NCBI GenBank assembly: GCA_029061495.1
Contig: JAIDRX010000057.1
Location: forward strand, 1 to 36,411
Source: Clostridia bacterium
Lineage (GTDB): Bacteria; Bacillota; Clostridia; Christensenellales; Borkfalkiaceae
Direction: 5' to 3'
DNA length: 36,411 bases
The translations under genes were made by a program, and so were the position numbers. The notes beneath the pieces were generated by a model. That model saw nothing but the letters and a program-made list of their open reading frames with translations, ran no database searches and was not told the origin of the DNA. Positions within the stretch are counted from its first letter, which is position 1, and each line of letters opens with the position of its first letter. This document shows, piece after piece, positions 12,806 to 21,604 of the stretch.

Positions 12806-13501
12806 ATGAAGATATTTTCGATAAGCGATTTACACCTTTCGGGTCTTGCCGACAAGCCTATGGACGTGTTCGGTCCGGGGTGGGAAAATCACTTTGAAAA
12901 AATTAAATGCGACTGGCAAAGCAAGGTAAGCGACGGGGATATAGTACTTATCTGCGGAGATATAAGCTGGGGAACCATGCTTGAAGAAGGACTGTACGAT
13001 CTGCGCTCTTTAAAGGAGCTTAAAGGCAAAAAAGTCTTTATCCGCGGCAACCACGACTATTGGTGGAACGGCATTACAAAGCTCCGCGACAGCGCCCCCG
13101 ACGACAGCTTTTACTTTCTTCAAAACGACTGCGTCAAGTTTGAAAATGTCGTTATCTGCGGCTCTCGCGGCTGGACTTGTCCCGGCAGTACCGACTACAG
13201 CGAGCACGACGAAAAGCTGTATTTAAGAGAGGCGGAGAGGTTCAAGCTCTGCTTTAAGGAAGTTGAAAAACAGCGCAAAGAAGGCGATAAATTAATCGTA
13301 ATGATTCATTATCCGCCGTTCAGTCAAAAGTCGCCCGAAACGCTTTTTACTAAGCTTTTTAAAGAGTACGGCGCGGATAAAGTAGTGTTCGGGCATATCC
13401 ACGGCGAAAATTATTTCCCGCTGCGCACTGTAAGGGACGGTATAGAGTACGTCCTAACCTCGTGCGATAAGGTGGGTTTTACCCTGCAAAGAATTTTATA
13501 A
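12806..13501 (+). CDS. Metallophosphoesterase
   Basis: ISDLHLSG, ICGDISWG, IRGNHDYWW, VMIHYPPF, VFGHIHGE. Confidence 0.93.
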   Translation: MKIFSISDLHLSGLADKPMDVFGPGWENHFEKIKCDWQSKVSDGDIVLICGDISWGTMLEEGLYDLRSLKELKGKKVFIRGNHDYWWNGITKLRDSAPDDSFYFLQNDCVKFENVVICGSRGWTCPGSTDYSEHDEKLYLREAERFKLCFKEVEKQRKEGDKLIVMIHYPPFSQKSPETLFTKLFKEYGADKVVFGHIHGENYFPLRTVRDGIEYVLTSCDKVGFTLQRIL

Positions 13502-13528: not shown

Positions 13529-13557
13529 TTTACATTATTAATCGGTTGTGTTATACT
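13529..13557 (+). promoter_or_regulatory. Putative promoter of the pyr operon: TTTACA-N17-TATACT
   Basis: TTTACA 13529-13534, TATACT 13552-13557, 17-bp spacer; predicts a leader RNA of about 160 nt before pyrB. Confidence 0.6.
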
Positions 13558-13609
13558 TTTAAAAATCGGAAATTTAATCTGCGCGGTATGCGCGGAGGTT
13601 ACGTCGGAT

Positions 13610-13720
13610 ATGAAGCGGATAATTGCCATCAAAGCGGAAAGGTCAAAGGCGAATGCTTGTGCATTTGCGTCAATGCCTTTTCCGCTTTTTTTGCGCCTTG
13701 ATTACTGCTACGGGAGATAA
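13610..13720 (+). CDS. Putative 36-aa leader peptide upstream of pyrB (MKRIIAIKAERSKANACAFASMPFPLFLRLDYCYGR)
   Basis: ATG at 13610 preceded by GGAGG at 13594-13598; reads through the terminator hairpin; TAA at 13718-13720, 3 nt before the pyrB ATG at 13724. Confidence 0.45.
   Translation: MKRIIAIKAERSKANACAFASMPFPLFLRLDYCYGR
13631..13692 (+). terminator. Intrinsic terminator/attenuator in the pyrB leader
   Basis: AAAGCGGAAAGG...CCTTTTCCGCTTT outer stem, inner GCGAATGC-ttgt-GCATTTGC, 7-T run at 13686-13692. Confidence 0.75.
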
Positions 13721-13723
13721 AGT

Positions 13724-14653
13724 ATGCTTAAAAGAAAAGACTTGCTCGGCTTGTTAGATACGAGCGCGGAAGAGATATGTGAAATTCTCGATACCGCCGA
13801 TAAAATGCGCGAGTGGCTTGAGGGCAAAGATAAAAAGGCTGACCTTTTGTCGGGCAAATCGCTGATAACGCTCTTTTACGAAAACAGCACGCGCACGCGC
13901 ACCTCTTTCGAGCTTGCGGGTAAATACTTGGGCGCAAACGAGGTAAACATTTCGGTTGCCACAAGCTCGGTACAGAAGGGCGAAACGCTTATCGACACGG
14001 GTAAAACGCTTGACAGTATGAAGATTGACTTCATAGCTATCCGCCACCCAATGGCGGGCGCGCCCAAGCTTCTTGCGGAGAATGTCAAGGCAAGCGTTAT
14101 AAACGGCGGCGACGGAATGAACGAGCACCCCACGCAGGCGCTTTTGGATATGCTTGCTATCCGCCGCAAATTCGGAAAGATAAAGGGACTTAAAGTTGCG
14201 ATTTTAGGCGATATAAAACACAGCAGAGTTGCAAAGAGTAACCTGTTCGGTCTTAAAAAACTGGGTGCGGAAGTTTATATGTACTCGCCCGAAACGCTTA
14301 TGCCCAAAGCTATCGAAAAGCTTGGCGCGCACGTCGCTAAATCGCGGGAAGAAGCGATAGAGGGCGCGGACGCGGTAATGGGACTGAGAATACAGCTCGA
14401 GCGTCAACACGGCGGACTTTTCCCGTCGCTTTCGGAGTACAGCCGCTTTTACGGTGTAAAGGACAACCTTTTAAAGCTTGCCAAACCCAACGCGGTTATA
14501 CTTCATCCCGGCCCCGTCAACAGAGGGGTAGAGCTTACGGCCTCGCTTATAGACGGAGACTCGAGCGAAATCTGCGAGCAGGTAACCTGCGGACTTTCGG
14601 TGAGAATGGCATTACTTAAACTGCTTGCCGAATACAGGGAGAAAAACTTATGA
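13724..14653 (+). CDS. pyrB: Aspartate carbamoyltransferase catalytic subunit
   Basis: FYENSTRTRTSFELAGKYLGANEVNI; GGDGMNEHPTQALLDMLAI; LHPGPVNRGVEL. Confidence 0.96.
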   Translation: MLKRKDLLGLLDTSAEEICEILDTADKMREWLEGKDKKADLLSGKSLITLFYENSTRTRTSFELAGKYLGANEVNISVATSSVQKGETLIDTGKTLDSMKIDFIAIRHPMAGAPKLLAENVKASVINGGDGMNEHPTQALLDMLAIRRKFGKIKGLKVAILGDIKHSRVAKSNLFGLKKLGAEVYMYSPETLMPKAIEKLGAHVAKSREEAIEGADAVMGLRIQLERQHGGLFPSLSEYSRFYGVKDNLLKLAKPNAVILHPGPVNRGVELTASLIDGDSSEICEQVTCGLSVRMALLKLLAEYREKNL

Positions 14654-15915
14654 AGTTACTTATAAAAAACGGAACGCTCGTTTTAAGGAGCGGAGTTAAA
14701 AAGGCCGACGTTCTTTTAAACGGCGGCAAGATAGAAAAAATTGCCACAGACATTAAAGCCGACTGCAAGACGATAGACGCTTCGGGCAAGCACGTTTTCC
14801 CCGGTCTTATCGATATGCACGTGCATTTGCGCGAACCCGGCTACGAGGGAAAGGAAGATATTTTAAGCGGCTCTCAGGCGGCGGTTGCCGGCGGCTTTAC
14901 GCAGGTTTGCTGTATGCCCAATACAAATCCGGTGTGCGATAACGCGGTGGTCGTTTCATATATTAAATACAGACAACAGCAGGTCAACCTTTGCCGCATA
15001 AACCCGATAGGCGCTATAACCAAGGGCGAGGAAGGCAAGGCAATGGCTGACATCGGCGCTATGAAAGAGGCGGGCGCGGTTGCAATAAGCGACGACGGAA
15101 AGTCGGTAATGGACTCAAACATTATGCGCCTTGCAATGGAATACGCTCACGGCTTTAATTTAAAGTGCCTTTGCCACTGCGAGGATATTAACCTCGTTGA
15201 CGGAGGAGTGGTAAACGAGGGCTACAACTCAACGCTTACGGGCTTAAAAGGAAGCCTTCGCGCCGCAGAAGACATTATGATAGCGCGCGACATAGCTTTG
15301 GCGGAAAGTCTTGATATTCCGGTACACATATGCCACGTTTCAACTTACAGCGGAGTAGAGCTTATCCGCAGCGCAAAATCGCGCGGAGTAAAAGTTACGG
15401 CGGAAACCTGTCCGCACTACTTTATACTGACGGACGACATAATAACCTCGTTCGATACCAGCACTAAGGTAAATCCCCCCGTAAGGGAAGCAAAGGACAG
15501 GGACGCGATAATCGAAGGCTTAAAGGACGGCACGCTCGACTGCATAGTAACCGACCATGCGCCCCACGCGTTAAAGGATAAACAGGTAGAGTACAACCTC
15601 GCCGCGTTCGGTATGAGCGGAATAGAAACAAGTTTCCCTCTCAGCTACACATATCTTGTAAAGACCGGGCGGCTCACGCTTCCGGAGCTTGCAGAGAGAA
15701 TGAGTTACAACCCCGCCAAAGTTTTGGGGCTTGAAGGCGGCGAAATAAAAGAGGGCGAAGTCGGCGATTTAACAATAATCGACCTCAACGAAAAGTACGT
15801 AATAGACAGCAACAAATTTCTTTCGAAGGGCAAAAATACGCCGTTCAACGGCTTCGAGGTATGCGGCAAAGTGCAGTATACTATAGTCGGCGGCGATATA
15901 AAATATAAAGCTTAA
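14650..15915 (+). CDS. pyrC: Dihydroorotase
   Basis: GLIDMHVHLREPGYEGKEDI; CHVSTYSGVELI; AETCPHYFILT; TDHAPHALKDK. Confidence 0.96.
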   Translation: MKLLIKNGTLVLRSGVKKADVLLNGGKIEKIATDIKADCKTIDASGKHVFPGLIDMHVHLREPGYEGKEDILSGSQAAVAGGFTQVCCMPNTNPVCDNAVVVSYIKYRQQQVNLCRINPIGAITKGEEGKAMADIGAMKEAGAVAISDDGKSVMDSNIMRLAMEYAHGFNLKCLCHCEDINLVDGGVVNEGYNSTLTGLKGSLRAAEDIMIARDIALAESLDIPVHICHVSTYSGVELIRSAKSRGVKVTAETCPHYFILTDDIITSFDTSTKVNPPVREAKDRDAIIEGLKDGTLDCIVTDHAPHALKDKQVEYNLAAFGMSGIETSFPLSYTYLVKTGRLTLPELAERMSYNPAKVLGLEGGEIKEGEVGDLTIIDLNEKYVIDSNKFLSKGKNTPFNGFEVCGKVQYTIVGGDIKYKA

Positions 15916-15935: not shown

Positions 15936-16865
15936 ATGATTGACTCGTTGATTGAAAAAATTATCGAGATGCAAAACCCTACCTGCGTAGGGCTTGACAC
16001 AAGCTTCGACTACCTTCCCGACGATATGAAGGTCGATAAAAACGGCGAAGTAATCGCAACGTTCGAGACTGCGGCAGAGCGCATTACCGAGTTCAATATG
16101 AACATTATTGACAAGGTCTGCGACATAGTCCCCGCGGTTAAAGTCCAGATAGCCTACTACGAAATGTACGGCTACGAGGGCTTGAAGGCTTTCGACTACA
16201 CGGTAAACTATGCGCGTGGCAAAGGTATGGTCGTAATTGCAGATTGCAAGCGCAACGACATAGGCTCCACCGCAAGCTGCTATTCAAAGGCTTATCTCGG
16301 CGCAACCCAGGTAAACGACAAAAAAATAAAGTCCTTCCCCGCCGATATGCTTACGGTAAACGGCTATCTCGGCTCGGACGGAATCAAACCCTTTATCGAA
16401 AATATCAAGTCGGATAACAAGTCTATTTTCGTACTCGTAAAAACGTCTAATCCCTCGAGCGGCGAATTGCAGAATTTAAAGCTCGATAACGGAGAATACG
16501 TTTACGAGCGTATGGGCTCGCTCGTTGCCGAATGGGGCAAGGAGACGATAGGCAAATACGGCTATTCGGAAGTCGGCGCGGTAGTAGGCGCAACCCATCC
16601 CGAGGAGGCGGCAAATTTAAGAAAAAGACTTCCCAATACGTTTTTCCTTATTCCCGGCTACGGCGCGCAGGGCGGCAGTGCGCAAATGCTTAAAGTCTGC
16701 TTCGATAAGCGCGGCTTAGGCGGTATCGTAAACAGCTCGCGAGGAATAATCTGCGCTTACAAAAACCCCGAGTACAGCGGTATGAACTACTCCGACGCGG
16801 CGCGCGCGGCGTGCTTGGATATGCAGCAGGATTTGCGCAACGCCATCGGCAAAATGGGTAAATAA
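15936..16865 (+). CDS. pyrF: Orotidine 5'-phosphate decarboxylase (long type)
   Basis: NPTCVGLDTSFDYLP; VVIADCKRNDIGSTASCYSKAYLG; IPGYGAQGG; VNSSRGI. Confidence 0.95.
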   Translation: MIDSLIEKIIEMQNPTCVGLDTSFDYLPDDMKVDKNGEVIATFETAAERITEFNMNIIDKVCDIVPAVKVQIAYYEMYGYEGLKAFDYTVNYARGKGMVVIADCKRNDIGSTASCYSKAYLGATQVNDKKIKSFPADMLTVNGYLGSDGIKPFIENIKSDNKSIFVLVKTSNPSSGELQNLKLDNGEYVYERMGSLVAEWGKETIGKYGYSEVGAVVGATHPEEAANLRKRLPNTFFLIPGYGAQGGSAQMLKVCFDKRGLGGIVNSSRGIICAYKNPEYSGMNYSDAARAACLDMQQDLRNAIGKMGK

Positions 16866-17626
16866 TGAAAGATATAATCGCAACCGTAAAAGAAAATAAA
16901 CTTATTGCGGAAAATATTTATATGCTGACTTTGACCCTGCCCGAAAGCGCGGGGAAAATAAAAGGCGGTCAGTTTTTAAACCTTTCCACGGGCAATGCGG
17001 CAAATTTACTGCGCAGGCCTTTGGGAATTATGAAGGTTGAGGGGAACGATATAACCGTCTGTTATCAGGTAAAGGGCGGCGGAACTCAGACCCTTTCCAA
17101 AACCGAAAAGGGTCAAAAACTTTCCGTATTGCTTCCGCTGGGCAACGGCTTCAACCTTGACGGATACAAAAAAGTTGCCGTAATAGGCGGCGGCGTGGGG
17201 ATATTCCCGCTCATTTCAACCATACGTGAAAACTGTAAAGATAAAGAGTTTTACTCGTTTATCGGTTTCAGAAATAAAGGCGCGGTTTGCCTTTTGGACG
17301 AGCTTGAAAAGAGCAAAACTTTAACCGTAACTACCGACGACGGAAGCTACGGCGAAAAGGGCAACGCGGTTGACGCATATTTAAAGCATGCGGACGGGAT
17401 AAAGGCGGACGTAATAATCGCCTGCGGTCCCCCTATAATGCTTAAAGTGTTAAAGCAAAAACTTATTGAGTGCGGCTCGGATATTCCCTGCTTCGTATCG
17501 TTGGAGGAGAGAATGGGCTGCGGTATCGGCGCGTGCCTTGTGTGCGTGTGCAAAAAAACTGACGGAGAAAACGCGCGCGTCTGCAAGGACGGTCCCGTTT
17601 TTAATATTAAGGAGGTAAATTTATAA
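16865..17626 (+). CDS. pyrK: Dihydroorotate dehydrogenase electron transfer subunit
   Basis: GGQFLNLS..LLRRPLGI (FAD), VIGGGVGIFPL, CGPPIMLKVL, C-terminal 2Fe-2S cysteines ERMGCGIGACLVCVCKK..VCKDGPVF. Confidence 0.93.
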   Translation: MKDIIATVKENKLIAENIYMLTLTLPESAGKIKGGQFLNLSTGNAANLLRRPLGIMKVEGNDITVCYQVKGGGTQTLSKTEKGQKLSVLLPLGNGFNLDGYKKVAVIGGGVGIFPLISTIRENCKDKEFYSFIGFRNKGAVCLLDELEKSKTLTVTTDDGSYGEKGNAVDAYLKHADGIKADVIIACGPPIMLKVLKQKLIECGSDIPCFVSLEERMGCGIGACLVCVCKKTDGENARVCKDGPVFNIKEVNL

Positions 17627-18619: not shown

Positions 18620-19534
18620 ATGGCAAACTTACAGGTAGAAATTTGCGGAGTAAAACTTAAAAACCCCGTAATTGCGGCAAGCGGAACTTTCGGCTTCGGC
18701 AGAGAGTATGACGAAATTTACGATATATCCGTCCTCGGCGGTATAAGCACCAAGGGCATGACGCTTTTGCCTCGCCTCGGAAATCCCGTGCCGAGAATAG
18801 CAGAGGGCGAAAGCGTAATTTTAAACGCGGTCGGACTTCAGAATCCCGGGGTAGAGCACTTCATAAAATACGACCTTGATTTTCTTAAAAGCAAGGGAGT
18901 GGCGGTCGTCGCGAACGTTGCAGGCAAATCGTTTGACGAGTACGGCGAAATCTGCGCTAAGTTAGACGGACTTGTAGACTTTGTCGAGCTCAACATTTCC
19001 TGTCCCAACGTGAAGGCGGGCGGAATGGCTTTCGGCATCAAGCCCGAAAGTATAAGGCAGGTTACGCAAGTTTCAAAAAGCGCGCTCAGAAAAACTCCGC
19101 TTATGGTCAAGCTTTCTCCGAACGTTGAAAGTATCCCCGTAAACGCTCAGGCGGCTCAAAGCGGCGGCGCGGACTGCATTTCACTAATAAACACGCTTAC
19201 AGGTATGGTCATAGATATCGAGCGCCGCAAACCCGTAATTGCCAATAATACGGGCGGCGTTTCAGGCGCCGGTATTAAGCCCGTCGCCGTTAGAATGGTT
19301 TACGAAGCGGCGCACTCCGTCGATATCCCCGTAATAGGCATGGGCGGAATTACGCGCGGCGCGGACGTTATCGAGTTTATGATGGCGGGCGCGCGCGCAG
19401 TTCAGGTAGGAACGGCAAACTTCACCGATGCAAACGCAATGCCACGAATTATCGCCGAAGCAAACTCATGGCTTGATAAGCACGGCGTAAAAAATATCAA
19501 CGAAATTGTAAACACGCTCACACTCAACGGCTGA
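18620..19534 (+). CDS. pyrD: Dihydroorotate dehydrogenase, catalytic subunit (class 1B)
   Basis: NPVIAASGTFGFGREYDEIYDISVLGGISTKGMTL; ELNISCPNVKAGGMAFG; GMGGITRGADVIEFMMAGARAVQVGTANF. Confidence 0.96.
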   Translation: MANLQVEICGVKLKNPVIAASGTFGFGREYDEIYDISVLGGISTKGMTLLPRLGNPVPRIAEGESVILNAVGLQNPGVEHFIKYDLDFLKSKGVAVVANVAGKSFDEYGEICAKLDGLVDFVELNISCPNVKAGGMAFGIKPESIRQVTQVSKSALRKTPLMVKLSPNVESIPVNAQAAQSGGADCISLINTLTGMVIDIERRKPVIANNTGGVSGAGIKPVAVRMVYEAAHSVDIPVIGMGGITRGADVIEFMMAGARAVQVGTANFTDANAMPRIIAEANSWLDKHGVKNINEIVNTLTLNG

Positions 19535-19536
19535 AA

Positions 19537-20973
19537 ATGAAAAAGTTTTTAGCGTGTATTTTGCTTGCGCTAACCGTAGTTTGCGCAATACCTTTTAACG
19601 CGGCTACAGCCGAAACGCAAAGCGGAGAGGACGTCTATTCGAGTATAGACGCATATCTTTCGCAGGCTACGCAAAGGGCGCATATCCCCGCAACGTCGGT
19701 AACTATCGTCGATAAAGAAAGCGTGCTGTTGTCAAAAACTTACGGCAAATGCGGGAGCGCGGACGTTCCTTTTTTGCTCGGCTCGGTCAGCAAATCGTTT
19801 ACGGCTGTTTGCATAATGCAGCTAGTTGAAAATGGCAAAATTAATTTAGACGACAATATTTCTGCGTATCTGCCAACCGCAAAGTATGGTGCTAAAATTA
19901 CTGTAAAACAACTTTTAAACCACACAAGCGGACTTGGCGAACATCAGAATTTCAATAACTACAAAATATTAAACAAGCAAGGCGAGCACGTTTACGCAAA
20001 CGTCAACTATACCTTGCTCGGCAAAATTATCGAAGCGGTCAGCGGAACCGACTACGGAACGTATGTTACCCAAAACGTATTTAAACCGTTGAATATGACG
20101 CGTTCAGCCGCCTCGCGCGAGGAAAGCGAAAAGAACGGACTGATTCAGGGTTACCGCAACTATCTAGGCGTAAACACAGCCGCAAAACCGAGTTATCCCA
20201 AAAGCGATTCAGACTGGATTTCGCTTTCCGCGGGATATCTTTCCGCATCTACGAACGACCTCGGCAAGTACCTTCAAATGTATTTAAATGAGGGCAATGA
20301 GATAATATCGCAACAAAGCATAGACGCAATGTTTTACGATAACAACGTTTCGGTTGAGGCAAATATTCCGTACGCTTACGGTTTCGGTTGGAATCTTATA
20401 AAAGAGCCGTTAAACGAACCTGTGCTCCGCCACAGCGGACTTGTCGAAACGGGAATGTCATGCATCTATATTCTACCCGAAAGGCAGATAGGCATTGCAA
20501 TCGCGGTAAACGTCAACGATTATTTCGTAACGAAAGATATGATGGACCGGATCGATTGGAGTATCGCGCTTATGCTTATGGGCGAGGCTCCCAACGAGAT
20601 AGGCGCCTCGGAATATGCGGTTAAACATTTCGGTTACGATATGGCTTATATTGCGGTTTTAATTATCGCGTGTCTGCCGCTGTGTTTATTGGGCTTGTTT
20701 ATAAAGCGGCTTTCAAAGGGCAACTTGGCTTTAAAAACAGTAATAACCGTATTACTGCATTTAGTGCTTCCGTCGTTGCTTTTGGCGCTTTCGCAAATGT
20801 TTTTTGCAACACCCTTGTGGGTTGCGTGCAACTTTGTTCCCGATTTGTTTATTACGATAGTTATATCATCAATCCTGTTGTACGCAGGCGGAATAGCAAA
20901 AGCGGCTATCCGGATATTTTATACGGTCAAAAAAAGGAGAAATAAAAATGACTTACAAACAGCAGTTTATTAA
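19537..20973 (+). CDS. Serine hydrolase of the class C beta-lactamase/PBP4*-like family, with signal peptide and C-terminal TM segments
   Basis: LGSVSKSFTAV (SxxK), YANVNYTLLGKIIEAVSG (YxN), LRHSGLVETG; hydrophobic C-terminal helices. Confidence 0.9.
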   Translation: MKKFLACILLALTVVCAIPFNAATAETQSGEDVYSSIDAYLSQATQRAHIPATSVTIVDKESVLLSKTYGKCGSADVPFLLGSVSKSFTAVCIMQLVENGKINLDDNISAYLPTAKYGAKITVKQLLNHTSGLGEHQNFNNYKILNKQGEHVYANVNYTLLGKIIEAVSGTDYGTYVTQNVFKPLNMTRSAASREESEKNGLIQGYRNYLGVNTAAKPSYPKSDSDWISLSAGYLSASTNDLGKYLQMYLNEGNEIISQQSIDAMFYDNNVSVEANIPYAYGFGWNLIKEPLNEPVLRHSGLVETGMSCIYILPERQIGIAIAVNVNDYFVTKDMMDRIDWSIALMLMGEAPNEIGASEYAVKHFGYDMAYIAVLIIACLPLCLLGLFIKRLSKGNLALKTVITVLLHLVLPSLLLALSQMFFATPLWVACNFVPDLFITIVISSILLYAGGIAKAAIRIFYTVKKRRNKNDLQTAVY

Positions 20974-21604
20974 ATTTATGGTAGATAACGGCGTTCTTAA
21001 ATTCGGCGAGTTTACTTTAAAGAGCGGAAGAAAAGCCCCTTACTTCATAAACACCGGTAACTATAAAACCGGTGCGCAGTTATCGCGCCTCGGCGAGTAT
21101 TACGCGCAGTGCATCGAAGAAAATAAGATAGAGGCGGACACTCTCGTTGGTCCCGCATACAAAGGTATTCCGCTTGCAGTAACCACCGCGGTTTCACTGT
21201 ATTCTAAGTACAATAAAGACCTGGGGTACTGCTTTGACAGGAAGGAAGTTAAGGACCACGGCGAGGGCGGCTTATTTGTCGGCAAACAGCTTGTAGACGG
21301 CGAGCGCGTAATTTTAATAGAGGACGTCATGACGTCGGGCAAGGCTCTCCGCGAAATGCTTCCCAAATTACAACAGGCGGCAAACGTAAAAATTGCGGGA
21401 ATGGTAATTTCCGTTGACAGAATGGAAAAGGGGCTTGAAAGCTCGCTTTCCGCCGTTCAGGAAGTATATAAGGAATTCGGCGTAAAGGTTTATTCCATCG
21501 TTACAATGGCGGACATAATTGCCGCTATCGAGGACGGAGTAATCGAGGGTAAAGAGTATCTTGACAAAATGAAAGAGTACCGTAAAACCTACGGCGTAAA
21601 CTAA
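20948..21604 (+). CDS. pyrE: Orotate phosphoribosyltransferase
   Basis: LKSGRKAPYFINTGNY; VGPAYKGIPLAV; DRKEVKDHGEGG; VILIEDVMTSGKALREML. Confidence 0.95.
   Translation: MTYKQQFIKFMVDNGVLKFGEFTLKSGRKAPYFINTGNYKTGAQLSRLGEYYAQCIEENKIEADTLVGPAYKGIPLAVTTAVSLYSKYNKDLGYCFDRKEVKDHGEGGLFVGKQLVDGERVILIEDVMTSGKALREMLPKLQQAANVKIAGMVISVDRMEKGLESSLSAVQEVYKEFGVKVYSIVTMADIIAAIEDGVIEGKEYLDKMKEYRKTYGVN

Follow-up and report, generated by a model that had tools for sequence, protein, structure and literature searches.

Leader ORF and terminator resembling E. coli pyrBI in anatomy before the pyr operon of a clostridial genus lacking PyrR

Organization of the pyr locus

The window, the whole stretch of 36,411 nucleotides that was analysed, belongs to a metagenome-assembled genome of 1.47 Mb that is 96% complete. 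Its genus is that of Candidatus Coproplasma, uncultured gut Clostridia represented by metagenome-assembled genomes. The window contains a pyr operon with the gene order pyrB-pyrC-pyrF-pyrK-two unknowns-pyrD-beta-lactamase-like gene-pyrE (Table 1). The promoter and leader of the operon are positioned downstream of a metallophosphoesterase gene, which ends at position 13501.

Table 1 Features of the pyr locus in the window
Feature	Positions	Strand	Details
Sigma-70-type promoter TTTACA-N17-TATACT	13529..13557	+	10/12 consensus matches
Leader ORF candidate A, 37 codons, MRGGYVGYEADNCHQSGKVKGECLCICVNAFSAFFAP	13588..13701	+	start aligns with starts of relatives
GGAGG Shine-Dalgarno sequence for the 13610 start	13594..13598	+	anti-Shine-Dalgarno duplex -10.2 kcal/mol
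Leader ORF candidate B, 36 codons, MKRIIAIKAERSKANACAFASMPFPLFLRLDYCYGR	13610..13720	+	strong Shine-Dalgarno sequence; ends 3 nt before pyrB
Intrinsic terminator hairpin (putative attenuator) AAAGCGG...CCGCTTT	13631..13688	+	-28.8 kcal/mol; counterpart in 64 leaders
Terminator run of 7 T	13686..13692	+
pyrB, aspartate carbamoyltransferase	13724..14653	+	NCBIfam NF002032, E 2e-113
pyrC, dihydroorotase	14650..15915	+
pyrF, orotidine-5'-phosphate decarboxylase	15936..16865	+	TIGR02127, E 1e-78
pyrK, dihydroorotate dehydrogenase electron transfer subunit	16865..17626	+
Gene between pyrK and pyrD, 168 aa	17626..18132		no Pfam or NCBIfam match
Gene between pyrK and pyrD, 158 aa	18132..18608		no Pfam or NCBIfam match
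pyrD, dihydroorotate dehydrogenase	18620..19534	+	NF005574, E 6e-119
Beta-lactamase-family gene between pyrD and pyrE	19537..20973		PF00144; 26-nt overlap with pyrE
pyrE, orotate phosphoribosyltransferase	20948..21604	+	TIGR00336, E 3e-50

The promoter is the top promoter-like site of the region. A preliminary description of this DNA listed the promoter, the GGAGG sequence, the ATG at 13610 with its 36 codons and stop at 13720, and the 3-nt gap before the pyrB start at 13724, all of which are read directly from the sequence. The hairpin and the seven T that it reported are both present; however, the T do not all follow the stem, because three of them are paired inside it. The predicted fold of the 177-nt leader has an energy of -56.7 kcal/mol, compared with -46.6 ± 4.0 kcal/mol in shuffled sequences (z -2.5).

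Two candidate leader ORFs, which start at ATG 13588 and ATG 13610, are in different frames, and each of them spans the entire hairpin. The start at 13610, which had been taken as that of the leader ORF, does not align with the start codon of any relative in pairwise alignments of the leaders. By contrast, ATG 13588 is aligned with the starts of L002, L004, L005, L006, L007, and L008, that is, in six of 11 pairwise alignments. It is separated from the -10 box upstream by 30 nt and from the hairpin downstream by 43 nt, as in the relatives. The Shine-Dalgarno interaction of ATG 13588 is weak, with an energy of -3.3 kcal/mol in comparison to that of ATG 13610 (Table 1). Judging by the alignments, ATG 13588 is more likely than ATG 13610 to be the inherited start codon of the window.

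Terminators and promoters in pyrB leaders

The pyrB gene is present in 84 of the 94 genomes of the genus, and its upstream regions were taken from these and from genomes in GTDB. The resulting 101 distinct regions include 31 with pyrR directly upstream of pyrB, as in Borkfalkia, and 70 without it. Of the 70 leaders without upstream pyrR, 64 contain a strong hairpin and its T run at 17–215 nt before pyrB, and in most relatives the distance is 17–55 nt. A pattern search identified a sigma-70-like promoter upstream of the terminator in 63 of these 64 leaders. A promoter followed by a terminator within one leader would make sense only as a regulated attenuator.

Three leaders (L019, L030, and L045) are minimal: they contain a promoter, a 17–19 nt hairpin positioned 22–23 nt past the -10 box, and a T run, with no room for an ORF. 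The terminator scan found no terminator in L011, L014, L049, and L086. Therefore, the arrangement of a terminator with a leader ORF is common in the genus but not universal. Four genomes (G020, G021, G057, and G061), each at least 93% complete, have no pyrB match at E ≤ 1e-40 and no carA, and may have lost pyrimidine synthesis.

Position and composition of the leader ORFs

The presence of leader ORFs was evaluated with a fixed rule, which required an ATG 20–90 nt before the hairpin, a stop codon between -20 and +50 nt of the hairpin edge, and at least eight codons. An ORF fitting the rule is present in 47 of 60 leaders, whereas 15.4 ± 3.4 are expected from dinucleotide shuffles. The leader sequences form 19 clusters, and when one leader is counted per cluster, the ORF is found in 14.7 of the 19 clusters, compared with 4.9 ± 1.8 in shuffled leaders and a maximum of 12 in 300 shuffles. 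When GTG and TTG starts are included and the ORF is chosen by eye in comparison to relatives, 61 leaders contain an ORF. This set is less objective than that defined by the rule, and it serves for description and for measurements of U-richness and Shine-Dalgarno pairing. The starts of these 61 ORFs are mostly located 26–36 nt past the -10 box, and 56 of the ORFs stop between -16 and +44 nt of the 5' edge of the hairpin. The pairing with the anti-Shine-Dalgarno sequence at the leader starts has an energy of -4.6 kcal/mol, compared with -3.9 kcal/mol in shuffled sequences (p 2e-4); that at the pyrB starts is stronger, at -6.2 kcal/mol.

The preliminary description emphasized an ORF that spans the whole hairpin. 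This is correct for the window; however, most ORFs of its relatives end at the base of the hairpin without crossing it. Only five of the 61, including that of the window, cross it completely, and the others end close to, at, or within the hairpin. Work in E. coli showed that termination fell from ~90% to <10% when a stop codon 28 bp upstream of a terminator was shifted to 5 bp upstream of it, and that ribosomes halted at distances above 27 nt did not repress termination (PMC4824070). The leader stops at the hairpin edge are within the zone in which ribosomes block termination in E. coli, and therefore a stop before the hairpin can be compatible with such a block. The alternative suggestion that the leader ORF is translationally coupled to pyrB is unlikely to apply generally, because most leader ORFs stop 36–254 nt before the gene.

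Synonymous bias, which had been put forward as a check of the leader ORF, is absent: within clusters, 13% of the changes are synonymous in the frame of the ORF in comparison to 21% in the other frames. The indels inside the leader ORFs are often not multiples of three (within clusters), and the leader peptides differ from cluster to cluster. The lack of synonymous bias suggests that what is conserved is where translation takes place rather than which peptide it yields. It speaks against a functional leader peptide, and the pattern would fit that of pyrBI, in which only the position of the ribosome matters.

The bodies of the leader ORFs are rich in U, with a U fraction of 0.32 compared with 0.22 at the pyrB start (p 4e-6 over clusters), and their longest U run is 3.95 nucleotides compared with 3.0 in shuffled sequences. 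UUU is the second commonest codon in the 61 leaders, and phenylalanine is the most frequent residue, present in 52 of them; both arginine and phenylalanine codons are frequent. Counts of codons and amino acids in the 61 leaders revealed no shared runs of one codon and no residue that occurs in every leader. The window differs from this pattern. The preliminary description had pointed out that the stretch before its hairpin is not strikingly U-rich, and this stretch contains only 22% U, which is below the level of the genus.

Long-range pairing between the 5' region of the leader ORF and the end of the terminator was considered as an additional element. When all leaders are pooled, the signal has a p value of 2e-4 and peaks at the T run; however, with one leader per cluster and dinucleotide shuffles it is not significant (z -0.25 ± 0.22), and the pairing is retained only as a lead. 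In leaders such as L022, L023, L026, L058, L063, L064, and L113, the sequence immediately upstream of the leader start could pair with the T run and the nucleotides that follow. Once the terminator has been read through, such pairing might sequester the start of the leader ORF.

PyrR in the genus and in Borkfalkia

The preliminary description found neither a pyrR gene nor a PyrR-binding loop in the window, and the absence extends to the genus. None of its 94 genomes encodes PyrR, and the best match has an E value of 9e-10 and 28% identity. The three weakly matching sequences that were read end in the motif YRNLPY(I/V)GIL, which we take to be HPRT-like, and these candidates were rejected. PyrR is present in 15 of the 18 genera of the family, and the three without a match include the genus of the window. 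The PyrR element RF00515 has no match at E ≤ 5 in the window or at E ≤ 1 in 20 relatives, and an Rfam search of the leaders matched no family.

By contrast, Borkfalkia has pyrR and a PyrR-type leader at the locus equivalent to that of the pyrB leader in the genus. The Borkfalkia leader L088, which precedes pyrR, has a full-length match to RF00515 of 35.2 bits (E 0.002), which is below the gathering cut-off of 54. The metallophosphoesterase gene is located upstream in both lineages, which indicates that the control systems were apparently exchanged in place. One genome of Candidatus Borkfalkia faecavium contains two pyrB loci on different contigs (L099 and L107), and a pyrR-like end precedes L107.

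A second leader ORF before carA

In 19 genomes of the genus in which carA is not positioned behind argF, the gene is preceded by a near-invariant hairpin, GACTGATTTA-loop-TAAATCAGTC. An ORF of 29–61 codons continues in frame to a TGA inside the hairpin in 17 of the 18 leaders with enough sequence (L172, L178, L179, L181, L184, L188, L191, L194–L197, L200, L221, L223, L239, L240, and L244). In 500 shuffles, 0.58 of 18 are expected and the maximum is four of 18; the carA leaders are mutually related, so that the 18 are not independent. The 45 nt preceding the carA hairpin contain 45% U. The sequence of the hairpin is near-identical across species. The carA of the window itself is located behind argF, without such a leader. 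The carA leaders are the strongest evidence in the sequences for ribosome-coupled leaders in the genus, and the signal to which they respond may be pyrimidines or arginine.

Comparison with known attenuators

The pyrB leaders of the genus resemble that of E. coli pyrBI, which also has its own promoter. The start of pyrL is located 25 nt past the -10 box, compared with mostly 26–36 nt in the genus; the U fraction of the pyrL region is 0.34 when measured in the same way; and the intrinsic terminator is positioned 30 nt before pyrB, within the range found in most relatives. The stop codon of pyrL is 3 nt before pyrB, as is that of candidate B in the window. However, the two systems belong to different phyla, have unrelated sequences, and no pyrI follows pyrB in the genus. 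Most ORFs of the genus stop at the base of the hairpin. The likeness is one of anatomy; a response to UTP would be a further, functional similarity.

PyrR-dependent attenuation of the Bacillus type (RF00515), which Borkfalkia carries, likewise involves a regulated terminator in a pyr leader of Bacillota, but the genus of the window lacks both the protein and its RNA element. In the pyr leader of Thermus, a short leader ORF overlaps the terminator, and PyrR is thought to act on coupling. The leaders described here share the short ORF at the terminator with Thermus, and differ from it in the absence of PyrR. Attenuation linked to the translation of a leader ORF has been described in Gram-positive bacteria for hisS and hisZ (PMC2965389), for branched-chain amino acids with a leucine-rich attenuator peptide in S. 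aureus (PMC5794164), and for vmlR in B. subtilis (PMC9226507). The hisS/hisZ and S. aureus leaders respond to an amino acid and that of vmlR to ribosome-targeting antibiotics; none of the three serves pyrimidines. The open-access papers that were searched contained no account of a pyrBI-like attenuator from Clostridia.

Proposed mechanism and alternative explanations

The pyrB leaders of the genus contain a dedicated promoter, a strong terminator, and an ORF placed so that a ribosome can reach or cover the 5' arm of the hairpin, and this organization occurs genus-wide in the absence of PyrR. We regard this attenuator, which has a leader ORF and an anatomy like that of pyrBI, as real and as occurring across the genus. 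The ribosome-coupled attenuator proposed in the preliminary description gains from the recurrence of the ORF, terminator, and promoter and from the lack of PyrR, whereas the synonymous bias that was expected of it is missing. We consider it fairly probable that the pyr leader is a transcription attenuator controlled by a ribosome translating the short leader ORF, as in pyrBI. The U-rich ORF body, together with the similarity to E. coli pyrL, makes UTP sensing the most likely reading. When UTP is plentiful, RNA polymerase would outrun the first ribosome, and transcription would terminate. When UTP is scarce, the polymerase would slow down in the U-rich leader, the ribosome would catch up and block the formation of the hairpin, and the pyr operon would be transcribed. 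The leader peptide itself would have no function. Borkfalkia still has the PyrR protein and its RNA site at this locus; in the genus of the window, the ribosome switch would have taken their place.

An attenuator whose leader ORF senses tRNA charging or a general slowdown of translation, and not UTP, would agree with the location of the carA leader at the branch of arginine and pyrimidine synthesis and with the frequent arginine and phenylalanine codons in pyrB leaders. However, even phenylalanine is missing from some leaders, runs of a single codon are not shared, the peptides vary between clusters, and U-richness explains the phenylalanine codons equally well, which makes this alternative unlikely. 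A terminator that operates purely through RNA folding, as a switch responding to an unknown ligand, protein, or small RNA, with the ORF being incidental, is similarly improbable. The absence of synonymous bias, the few leaders that have a terminator without an ORF, and the pooled complementarity of the 5' leader to the terminator end are in agreement with it; but the placement of the ORFs is far above chance, the carA leaders preserve a reading frame that terminates inside the hairpin, and the complementarity is lost when one leader per cluster is used. Furthermore, no Rfam family was matched, and the 19 leader clusters differ too much in sequence to suggest an obvious fold that binds a ligand. 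Control of the terminator by a diverged form of PyrR or by some other protein that binds RNA, as in Bacillus, could be expected from the use of PyrR in Bacillus-type pyr operons and in Borkfalkia at a syntenic locus. This is very improbable given the lack of PyrR in the 94 genomes, where the best match is weak and the three sequences read are HPRT-like, and of RF00515 in the window and 20 relatives, although the search detects the element in Borkfalkia.

The window requires separate consideration. In its species the arrangement might have decayed, leaving a largely constitutive or leaky terminator and ORFs that occur by chance. The 13610 start lies closer to the hairpin (-21) than the start of any other leader, the leader is not U-rich, and two ORFs overlap in different frames. 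However, none of the promoter, the strong hairpin, and the T run is disrupted, and an unregulated terminator after the promoter would shut off an operon to all appearances complete; decay is a minor possibility. The leader of the window is shortened and not U-rich, and how it is regulated can therefore be stated with less confidence than the pattern seen across the genus. The ORF of the window taken alone could be due to chance, whereas the genus-wide arrangement is not, and the species of the window may have a modified or weakened version of the device.

Implications for transcription-translation coupling

In Bacillota, ribosomes are expected to trail RNA polymerase, and recent work assigns the phylum to the class with runaway transcription (PMC13323073); the genes of the window contain 54% purine, as in B. 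subtilis. General coupling of RNA polymerase to ribosomes is therefore unlikely, and a ribosome-controlled leader would have to create the coupling locally, by pausing. It is possible, with a chance somewhat short of even, that the genus, having lost PyrR, evolved ribosome-coupled, UTP-responsive attenuators at pyrB, that some of its species did so independently upstream of carA as well, and that selection acts only on where translation occurs and not on the peptide. If this is true, a protein-RNA attenuator was swapped for a ribosome-coupled attenuator at the same locus between related genera. The pyr leaders would provide a natural test of the coupling of RNA polymerase and ribosomes in a phylum assigned to the runaway class, and coupling would be a local state made by the leader and not a general property of the cell.
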